Origin: Thiomonas sp. X19
Lineage (GTDB): Bacteria > Pseudomonadota > Gammaproteobacteria > Burkholderiales > Burkholderiaceae_C
Assembly: GCF_900089495.1 (NCBI RefSeq)
Contig: NZ_LT605203.1
Location: 829,522-893,521 of the forward strand
Direction of reading: 5' to 3'
Length of the DNA stretch: 64,000 bases
The position numbers and the translations under genes were made by a program. The notes below the pieces were generated by a model. That model was not told the origin of the DNA, made no database searches, and saw only the letters and a program-made list of their open reading frames with translations. This document shows positions 8,454 to 17,180 of the stretch, one piece after another; the stretch's first letter is position 1, and the number at the start of each line of letters is the position of its first letter.

Positions 8454-9776
8454 TCACTGCACCGCGTTCAGCACCTTGTCGTCCACCTTCGTCGCTGGCC
8501 CGTCCTTGGGCCCGAGCAGGGCGTAGAGCAGGATGGCGCCGAAGGTGGCGGTGCCGATGCCGCCGAGGGCGAAGCCGCCGAACTTCAGGGTGAAGTCGGC
8601 GGTTCCCAGCATCAGCGTGATGGCGACGATGATGAGGTTGCGGCTGTCGGAAAAATCCACCTTGTTGTCCACCCAGATGCGCGCGCCGGACACGGCGATG
8701 AGGCCGAAGATGACGATGGCCACGCCGCGCAGCACGGGGAAGGGGATGAGGTGGATGAGCGCGCCGAACTTGGGGCTGAAGCCGAGCACGATGGCGATGA
8801 CCGCGGCGGTGGCGAAGATGACGGTGGAGTAGATCTTGGTGGCGGCCATGACGCCGATGTTCTCGGCATAGGTGGTGACGCCGGTGCCGCCGGCCGAACC
8901 CGAGACGATGGTGGCGATGCCGTCGCCGAGAAAGGCGCGGCCCATGTAGCGGTCCAGGTTCTGCCCGGTCATGGCGGTGACGGCCTTGATGTGGCCGAGG
9001 TTTTCGGCCACGAGAATCACGACCACCGGCACGATCAGGCTCATGGCCTTGGATTCGAACACCGGCGCGGTGAAGGCCGGCATGCCGAACCAGGCGGCGT
9101 TGGCGAGTCCGGAAAAGTCCATCGGCACGCCCAGGCCGAGGCCGTTGGTGAGCAGGGCGTAGATCACGCTGGCGACCAGCAGCCCCACCAGGATGAGCAG
9201 GCGCTGCACCATGCCGCGGGTGTACACGGCGACCAGGCCGACGCTGACGAAGGTGACCACGGCCATCCAGTCGTCGAAGTTGCTCGCGCCGTGGCTTTTG
9301 ATGGCGATGGGCGCGAGGTTCAGACCGATGACGGCGACCACCGAGCCGGTGACCACCGGCGGCATCAGGCGCTCGATCCAGCGCGTGCCGATGCCCATGA
9401 CGACGAGCCCGATGGCCGCATACACCACGCCACAAGCCACGATGCCGCCCAGCGCCACGGCGATGTTGGGGTTGGCGCCCGAGCCGGCGTAGCCGCTGGC
9501 GGCGATGACCACGCCGATGAAGGAGAACGAGGAGCCGAGGTAGCTGGGCACCCGCCCGCCGACGACGAGAAAGAAGATCAGCGTGCCCACGCCGCTCATG
9601 AGGATGGCGATGTTGGGCGAAAAGCCCATGAGCAGCGGCGCGAACACCGTGGAGCCGAACATCGCCACCACGTGCTGCAGGCCCATCGCCAGGGTCTGCG
9701 GCACGGGCATGCGCTCGTCGGGGGCGATGACGCCGCTGGTTTTGACGCGCCACTTGGGGAAATAGGACTCGGCCAT
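8454..9776 (-). CDS. NCS2-family uracil/xanthine permease (RutG/UraA-like)
   Basis: A 440-residue inner-membrane nucleobase:proton symporter of the NCS2 family. The family landmarks are QHVVAMFGSTVFAPLL in the first helix, SFIGVVIAASGYAG, and the transmembrane-8 signature SGSAGGTGVTTYAENIGVMA with the substrate-coordinating Glu. The TTYAENIG variant is typical of uracil rather than purine transporters. It is the last gene of a minus-strand cluster with cytosine deaminase, uracil phosphoribosyltransferase and URC genes, which supports uracil as substrate. The ATG at 9776 precedes AESYFPKW, the usual polar N-terminus; the open frame extends upstream without family similarity. Confidence 0.9.
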   Translation of the reverse strand: MAESYFPKWRVKTSGVIAPDERMPVPQTLAMGLQHVVAMFGSTVFAPLLMGFSPNIAILMSGVGTLIFFLVVGGRVPSYLGSSFSFIGVVIAASGYAGSGANPNIAVALGGIVACGVVYAAIGLVVMGIGTRWIERLMPPVVTGSVVAVIGLNLAPIAIKSHGASNFDDWMAVVTFVSVGLVAVYTRGMVQRLLILVGLLVASVIYALLTNGLGLGVPMDFSGLANAAWFGMPAFTAPVFESKAMSLIVPVVVILVAENLGHIKAVTAMTGQNLDRYMGRAFLGDGIATIVSGSAGGTGVTTYAENIGVMAATKIYSTVIFATAAVIAIVLGFSPKFGALIHLIPFPVLRGVAIVIFGLIAVSGARIWVDNKVDFSDSRNLIIVAITLMLGTADFTLKFGGFALGGIGTATFGAILLYALLGPKDGPATKVDDKVLNAVQ

Positions 9777-9865
9777 GGTTGAAGTTCCCTGGGTTGTCGG
9801 GCTTGCCTGCGTCAGCGAAGCGGCCCCGTTGTAAGTGATGTGCGGGTTTTCAGGAATGCTTGCTC

Positions 9866-15942: not shown

Positions 15943-17180
15943 TCCTCCAGCCCCCGACCCTTCGGCAGCGCCAGTTCTTCCTCGCTCGGCGTGTAGTGCG
16001 AGAAGTAGCCGGCGGCTTTTTTCGCGTCCATTTCCACGCGCGCATCGGGCGGAATCAGGTCCTCGGGAATGGCCACCTGCTCGACGACCTCGATGCCGGC
16101 CTGGGTCAGCGCGCCGAGTTTCATATTGCTCATCGACGCCCAGCGGTCGATGCGGGTGATGCCCAGCCAGTGGAACACGTCGGGCATGAGCTCCTGGAAG
16201 CGCATGTCCTGCACCCCGGCCACGCATTCGGTACGCTCGAAATAGGTCTCGGCGCGGTCGCCGCCGAGCTGGCGCTTGCGCGCGTTGTAGACCAGGAACT
16301 TGGTCACCTCGCCCAGGGCGCGGCCCTCCTTGCGGTTGTACACGACGAGGCCGACGCCGCCCTGCTGCGCCATCTCGATGCAGACCTCGATGCCATGCGC
16401 CAGATAGGGCCGGCAGGTGCAGATGTCGGAGCCGAACACGTCCGAGCCGTTGCACTCGTCGTGCACGCGGCAGGCCACGCGGGTCTCGGTCTTGCCGAGC
16501 TGGGCGACGTCGCCGAAGAAGTACAGCGTCATGCCGCCGATGGGCGGCAGGAACACCTTCAGGTCGGGCCGCGTCACCAGTTCCGGGAACATGCCGCCGG
16601 TCTGCTCGAACAGGGTGCGGCGCAGCGCCGGTTCGCGCACGCCGAAGCGCGCTGCAATGCCCGGCAGCCACCACACCGGATCGACCGCGGCCTTGGTCAC
16701 GCGCACGTCGCCGTTGGCGTGCAGGATGGCGCCGTCGGGCGTGAGCCGGCCGGTGGCGATGGCGTCTTTCAGCTCGGGCATGTTGATGTGCGCGCGGGTG
16801 ACGGCGATGGTCGGGCGCAGGTCCAGCCCGGCGGCGATCTGCGCGGCGAACACCTCGGGCACCAGATGGCCCCAGGGGTCGAGCGAAACGATCTTGCCGG
16901 GCTCGGCCCACTGCGGATGCGGGCCGATGGCGGCGGCCGGCGCGGTGTCGGTGAAGTCGGGCCGGTGGTCGCGGTCGAGCGCGCCCGAGGCCACCGCCAG
17001 CGCGCGGTACAAGGCATAGGCGCCCGCATGCGTGCCGATGGCGTTGCGCCGGCGCGGGTCGGTCAGCGTGGCCACCACCGGACCGCGCGCAGCGGCCGTG
17101 GCGGCGTCCCAATGGATTTCAGGCGGTTGCACCATGCTGCCCTGGCCGGGATGCGATGAGAGCACGACGTGACTGGACAT
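15939..17180 (-). CDS. URC1-type GTP cyclohydrolase II homologue
   Basis: A 413-residue member of the RibA-like URC1 family, which in the yeast Lachancea kluyveri is needed to degrade uracil rather than to make riboflavin. The C-terminal half has the GTP cyclohydrolase II zinc-site layout CRVHDECNGSDVFGSDICTC (Cys in DEC and CTC) and the catalytic-loop sequence NRKEGRALGEVTKFLVYNAR. The N-terminal ~190 residues (ATLTDPRRRNAIGTHAGAYA and SLDPWGHLVPEVF) are special to URC1 and absent from RibA. Start ATG 17180 has GGAG 6 nt upstream. It is the first gene of the minus-strand cluster and lies just downstream of a RutR-type operator. Confidence 0.88.
   Translation of the reverse strand: MSSHVVLSSHPGQGSMVQPPEIHWDAATAAARGPVVATLTDPRRRNAIGTHAGAYALYRALAVASGALDRDHRPDFTDTAPAAAIGPHPQWAEPGKIVSLDPWGHLVPEVFAAQIAAGLDLRPTIAVTRAHINMPELKDAIATGRLTPDGAILHANGDVRVTKAAVDPVWWLPGIAARFGVREPALRRTLFEQTGGMFPELVTRPDLKVFLPPIGGMTLYFFGDVAQLGKTETRVACRVHDECNGSDVFGSDICTCRPYLAHGIEVCIEMAQQGGVGLVVYNRKEGRALGEVTKFLVYNARKRQLGGDRAETYFERTECVAGVQDMRFQELMPDVFHWLGITRIDRWASMSNMKLGALTQAGIEVVEQVAIPEDLIPPDARVEMDAKKAAGYFSHYTPSEEELALPKGRGLEE

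Follow-up and report, generated by a model that had tools for sequence, protein, structure and literature searches.

Can a bacterium draw nitrogen from cytosine and uracil through the URC route, and which reaction would its URC4 protein then catalyze? This question is raised by seven minus-strand genes at positions 8454-17180 of a 64,000-nucleotide stretch of Thiomonas sp. X19 (contig NZ_LT605203.1, positions 829,522 to 893,521), hereafter called the window, to which all coordinates refer unless stated otherwise. What is known so far of URC uracil catabolism comes from yeast genetics and from structural work on one enzyme, URC1, while URC4 has no known function. In yeast, according to an excerpt of PMC7530994, the conversion of uracil to 3-hydroxypropionate and ribosylurea is carried out by URC1 and URC6 through steps that are uncharacterised, and ribosylurea is broken down to urea by URC4. 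Bacterial URC clusters are already known, and the literature lists URC among the established pyrimidine routes; the novelty would lie in how URC4 works and how RutR is wired, and neither was found in the literature searched.

In this study, we arrive at the reading, with a probability of roughly 0.7, that the cluster serves to obtain nitrogen from cytosine and uracil through the URC route, with URC4 acting as a phosphoribosyl-urea N-glycosidase. We put at somewhat better than even the broader proposal that DUF1688/URC4 proteins form another branch of the Qng1 fold of nucleotide N-glycosidases and hydrolyze phosphoribosyl-urea, that a ribose-phosphate handle carries uracil during its degradation and is then reused, and that a RutR-type regulator was placed over URC in several betaproteobacterial lineages without the Rut pathway.

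Gene content and conservation of the cluster

The order of the genes from the promoter is URC1, URC4, upp, the RutR-like gene, codA, and the NCS1 and NCS2 permease genes. Their place, strand and families had been given in an earlier note on this DNA and were confirmed using Pfam and NCBIfam; the operator at the end of the list, the URC4 fold and the additional stretches within URC4 go beyond that note:

15939-17180, minus strand: URC1, uridine triphosphate (UTP) cyclohydrolase-type protein of the GTP cyclohydrolase II superfamily (Pfam GTP_CH_N and GTP_cyclohydro2)
14401-15942, minus strand: URC4, DUF1688 (PF07958, 453 bits, residues 79-513 of 513), proposed phosphoribosyl-urea N-glycosidase
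13706-14341, minus strand: upp, uracil phosphoribosyltransferase (Pfam UPRTase, 252.7 bits)
12915-13706, minus strand: RutR-like TetR-family regulator (Pfam TetR_N and TetR_C_3)
11583-12857, minus strand: codA, cytosine deaminase (Pfam Amidohydro_3)
9913-11337, minus strand: NCS1 family nucleobase permease (Transp_cyt_pur, 148 bits)
8454-9776, minus strand: NCS2 family permease, RutG-like (uracil) (Xan_ur_permease, 300.8 bits)
17197-17212, no strand assigned: predicted RutR-type operator TTGACCGATTGGTCAG, 16 nt upstream of the URC1 ATG

The ATG of URC4 overlaps the stop codon of URC1, and the ATG of the RutR-like gene overlaps the upp stop codon by one base. Between URC4 and upp, and again between the regulator gene and codA, lie 57-59 nt; the NCS1 gene follows after a gap of 245 nt and the NCS2 gene after 136 nt. 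URC1 (PRK07198, 761 vs. 403 bits), CodA (PRK07572, 812 vs. 438 bits) and Upp (TIGR01091, 272 vs. 208 bits) scored above their NCBIfam cut-offs. For the permeases, the NCS1 and NCS2 families stood, and "RutG-like" appears to be a fair name, as does "RutR-like" for the regulator. The cytosine specificity previously claimed for the NCS1 permease is unsupported and would follow from context only, because no specific family model matched: the protein reached no NCBIfam cut-off, neither for ncs1 (222.7 vs. 353.1 bits) nor for the cytosine permease PRK11017 (21.8 vs. 326 bits).

Scanning contigs with the URC4 alignment gave at least 588 matching stretches, of which at least 570 were confirmed. An annotation of URC4 would thus carry widely, as each of the latter stretches, all from the species collection, codes for a relative of URC4. 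The following locus counts refer to the best 80 loci among the confirmed stretches, i.e. those closest to the query. In 73 of 77 assessable loci, URC1 immediately preceded URC4, in 71 of 78 upp immediately followed it, and all three genes were adjacent in 67 of 75 (exceptions: L038, L056, L064, L070, L072, L073, L085 and L092). This linkage of URC1, URC4 and upp is more than chance. The gene rutR was present in 19 and codA in 24 of the 80 loci. Recognizable homologues of the NCS1 and NCS2 permeases of the window occurred in one locus only, the close relative L018, a Burkholderiales metagenome-assembled genome (MAG) with proteins 87-95% identical to those of the window; 13 loci, several Cupriavidus among them, instead carried a Bmp-type nucleoside ABC transporter, frequently located between rutR and codA. 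Within the taxonomic order of the window, PF07958 was patchy (12 of 300 genomes with a match, 11 of them over the cut-off).

The reading as a URC cluster joined with cytosine salvage is supported, and a complete Rut or Pyd route elsewhere in the genome, which the earlier note had named as refuting it, was not found among the families tested. This search comprised RutA, dihydropyrimidinase and PreA; other rut or pyd genes and barbiturase lay outside it. RutA gave no match in the genome, with positive controls, and the best matches to hydantoinase/dihydropyrimidinase (71 bits) and to the dihydropyrimidine dehydrogenase PreA (42 bits) stayed below the cut-offs of 393 and 335 bits. For these three families, the lack of rut and pyd genes noticed earlier in the window thereby extends to the whole genome. 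A search for urea-degrading genes, which the earlier note had recommended, revealed a urease alpha subunit (940.2 bits for two pieces together, cut-off 680) and a urea carboxylase (1861 vs. 1304 bits). Also, an MMSDH-family dehydrogenase was detected (648 vs. 448.5 bits). According to the excerpt of PMC7530994, the URC system of Lachancea kluyveri (URC1, URC4, URC6, URC3/5) has in common with that of Thiomonas the URC1 and URC4 homologues, a uracil phosphoribosyltransferase, genomic urea-degrading enzymes and the scheme from uracil to urea. In Thiomonas, by contrast, the genes lie in a single bacterial operon under predicted RutR-type control, together with those for cytosine deaminase and permeases, and a urease is present besides urea carboxylase.

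URC1, URC4 and the RutR-type operator

URC1 matched the solved chain 7ej3 over its full length with 67.0% identity (406 residues), and a profile built from ten URC1 proteins matched 7ej3 and 7eev with an E value of 6e-239, as opposed to 1e-10 or weaker for true RibA chains. Judged by sequence, URC1 thus appears to be a full-length orthologue of these two proteins, from which it differs in sequence only. Both deposits carry the name GTP cyclohydrolase II in the PDB, as does the NCBIfam model for URC1, and we take them to be a bacterial UTP cyclohydrolase. 7ej3 is said to stem from work on a UTP cyclohydrolase by Zhang et al. (ACS Catal 2021). Given this identity, the chemistry of the URC route, which the earlier note had called incompletely defined, would be less open at the URC1 step. 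Residues C243, C254 and C256, presumably the counterparts of the RibA zinc ligands, were invariant in all 87 aligned loci. The structure prediction for URC1 was poor, with a mean predicted local distance difference test (pLDDT) score of 62.4, and was set aside in favour of the sequence match.

For URC4, the predicted fold corresponded across the whole chain to that of the Qng1/DUF2419 superfamily (7ugk, 7uk3, 7u91 and others) at about 17% sequence identity in Foldseek. Lys199 of Qng1 appears to be kept as K307 of URC4, with the register taken from sequence, and together with E338 it would form a candidate catalytic pair. Such an N-glycosidase fold would fit the conversion of ribosylurea to urea, and fold and residue pair reduce the missing step of the pathway to a short enzyme assay. 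URC4 differs from Qng1 in its Pfam family and in its proposed substrate, phosphoribosyl-urea instead of queuosine-5'-monophosphate, with which the solved relatives were crystallized. A report joining DUF1688/URC4 with DUF2419/Qng1 was not found among the papers listed in the literature search, which did not cover the original Qng1 papers. The URC4 profile retrieved only an unrelated match (E 1.3) from the PDB sequences, and a Qng1 fragment searched against plasmids gave no match. The Qng1 family PF10343 had no match in 398 genomes of the phylum and also none in 14 controls, and this search is hence uninformative.

The URC4 protein of the window is extended at its N-terminus by about 78 residues and also contains an internal insertion. 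The latter comprises residues absent from nine aligned homologues and is accounted for by a short interspersed repeat located in frame at 15380-15470. Further copies of this repeat with 79-81% identity over 40-73 nt were found at 22378-22447, 6777-6822 and 25016-25055, outside the neighboring genes. The copy within URC4 is reminiscent of the palindromic repeats that occur in frame in other bacteria. The N-terminal extension of URC4 (15885-15906) and the C-terminal tail of the RutR-like protein (12953-12974) have a 22-nt motif in common (21 of 22 positions identical), which may represent another repeat family that extends reading frames.

The operator TTGACCGATTGGTCAG is a palindrome with two mismatches to TTGACCANNTGGTCAA, which we take to be the RutR-type consensus; a literature search for this consensus found nothing. 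Of the 80 loci, 74 had an assessable region upstream of URC1. Among the 18 of these with rutR, 14 carried a box with no more than two mismatches and all 18 a box with no more than three, compared to none of the 56 loci without rutR. These 18 loci are not independent events, since 12 of them are from Cupriavidus. Box and rutR agree also in Noviherbaspirillum, Zoogloea, Azoarcus, Caldimonas and two Proteobacteria MAGs; L021, another Caldimonas locus, had neither a detectable rutR nor a box. In a second, partly overlapping set, the boxes of the three loci with rutR had 1-2 mismatches, against at least five in the six remaining loci. The RutR-like protein may act as a repressor at the box before URC1, with the operon being switched on when a pyrimidine is present. 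The arrangement resembles the RutR/Rut system of Escherichia coli in its RutR-like regulator, its RutG-like permease and a RutR-type box before a catabolic gene. Unlike E. coli, the Thiomonas genome has no RutA, and the regulator would govern another ring-opening route. The operator pattern suggests that a pyrimidine-type regulator was apparently rewired to a chemically unrelated pathway; no report joining RutR with GTP cyclohydrolase and uracil was found in the literature searched.

The proposed route and its alternatives

From the genes, their linkage, the predicted fold of URC4 and the conserved residues, we infer the following substrates, phosphorylation states, products and physiology. 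Cytosine and uracil would enter by the NCS1 and NCS2 permeases. According to their family assignments, CodA would convert cytosine to uracil, and Upp would form uridine monophosphate (UMP) from uracil and phosphoribosyl pyrophosphate (PRPP). Housekeeping kinases convert UMP to UTP. URC1, if it acts as we assume for its orthologue 7ej3, would open and split the pyrimidine ring of UTP, presumably yielding a three-carbon semialdehyde and urea bound to the ribose phosphate. By analogy to Qng1 acting on queuosine-5'-monophosphate, the Lys307/Glu338 pair of URC4 could then hydrolyze the N-glycosidic bond of phosphoribosyl-urea to urea and ribose 5-phosphate. The latter could be returned to PRPP, and such a reusable ribose-phosphate handle would explain why upp, a "salvage" gene, is part of a degradation operon and nearly always found beside URC1 and URC4. 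Urease and/or urea carboxylase may release ammonia from urea, and the MMSDH-family dehydrogenase could take the three-carbon product.

Several results weigh against this route. Its weak point is the triphosphate: URC1 acting on UTP would give a triphosphate product, and no dedicated pyrophosphatase was recognized in the cluster, so that URC4 would have to accept the triphosphate itself unless an unlinked pyrophosphatase precedes it. A reaction cannot be read off a shared fold, and Asp231 of Qng1 is replaced in URC4 by a glutamate, the invariant E338. In the Pfam scan, URC4 matched DUF1688 alone and no Qng1 family. A short-fragment profile test did not reach significance (score 15.9, compared to as much as 20.7 for shuffles), and the full-length comparison gave low probabilities of 32% (local mode) and 0.8% (global mode). 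Due to the N-terminal extension and the internal insertion, the activity of this particular URC4 copy is not certain. The regulator scored below the RutR cut-offs (TIGR03613, 206 vs. 368 bits; PRK15008, 183 vs. 230 bits), and the NCS2 permease below that of RutG (NCBIfam, 679 vs. 758.65 bits). The RutR-type motif with at most two mismatches was not enriched genome-wide (27 matches per strand vs. 37 for the backwards control). Therefore, only the position of the box is informative, and a regulon drawn from the genome-wide matches was dropped.

It is possible, if rather doubtful, that the N-glycosidase URC4 acts on dephosphorylated ribosyl-urea, with a phosphatase operating between URC1 and URC4 and the sugar returning as ribose. 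The yeast URC4 substrate named in the excerpt of PMC7530994 is ribosylurea, without a phosphate, and in one locus (L039) a gene for a 5'-nucleotidase C-terminal domain adjoins URC1. However, the ligand in the solved relatives is a 5'-monophosphate, and the reuse of ribose would need a kinase. Moreover, no dedicated pyrophosphatase or nucleotidase, including the 5'-nucleotidase, recurred beside the URC triad among 30 chosen neighbor proteins of the 80 loci, which are a sample and not a census. Single or lineage-bound neighbors were the protein of L039 and a phosphoglucomutase-type protein. In Microvirga-type loci (L061, L065, L075, L086 and similar), genes for a DGOK-family sugar kinase and an M17 aminopeptidase come after the triad, and those for a phosphopentomutase-superfamily metalloenzyme and peptide-type ABC ATPases before it, hinting at a lineage-specific handling of the sugar phosphate.

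It is unlikely that the cluster was once functional and is now decaying in this genome, with the inserted stretches impairing URC4. Such decay would agree with internal residues that are made of a repeat otherwise located between genes and with pLDDT values under 50 for residues 87-106 of the URC4 model. Against it, the URC4 frame is open over 513 residues with a strong family match, K307, E338 and their neighboring residues are kept, and the insertion lies in a low-confidence stretch resembling a surface loop.

Quite improbable is a role of URC4 as a general pyrimidine nucleotide N-glycosidase, acting for example on UMP or uridine, with urea originating from elsewhere. The fold and the residues would be equally compatible with such an enzyme, but it would undo the Upp reaction of the same operon, and the excerpt of PMC7530994 reports yeast data that place URC4 on ribosylurea.

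Least probable of all is that URC1 is the GTP cyclohydrolase II of the riboflavin pathway and the cluster not catabolic, a role suggested by the database names and by the lack of a canonical RibA over the cut-off in this genome, but disfavoured by the low RibA score of URC1 (TIGR00505, 48.3 vs. 205.85 bits), by its travelling with URC4 and upp, and by a comparison of 12 genomes of the family, in which URC1 does not fill a gap specific to this genome, because none of them had a RibA over the cut-off and in eight a RibBA-like protein was the sole match, with no second URC1-type match. Among 30 genomes searched, only five had a RibA over the cut-off. The riboflavin operon (L106, 3774-5090; in the Thiomonas genome on C3 at about 1655773-1657090) encodes RibB fused to a divergent RibA-like domain.

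Neighboring features of the window

A divergent HAAT-type ABC transporter, made up of a binding protein with two permeases and two ATPases, is encoded at 17667-22370 and has its intergenic region in common with URC1. Models for urea and branched-chain amino acid transporters matched it below the cut-off only. As a permease homologue was found in only one of the 80 loci, the transporter, at first considered to belong to the URC system, was set aside.

An IS110-family transposase gene (4881-6716) is located between ychF and the genes before it. Furthermore, an anti-hemB RNA (RF02837, 74.5 bits), a member of a Burkholderia small RNA family, was detected at 48451-48528, and positions 28480-34513 contain a CusA/CzcA-type heavy metal RND efflux operon with genes for the adaptor and the outer membrane protein.
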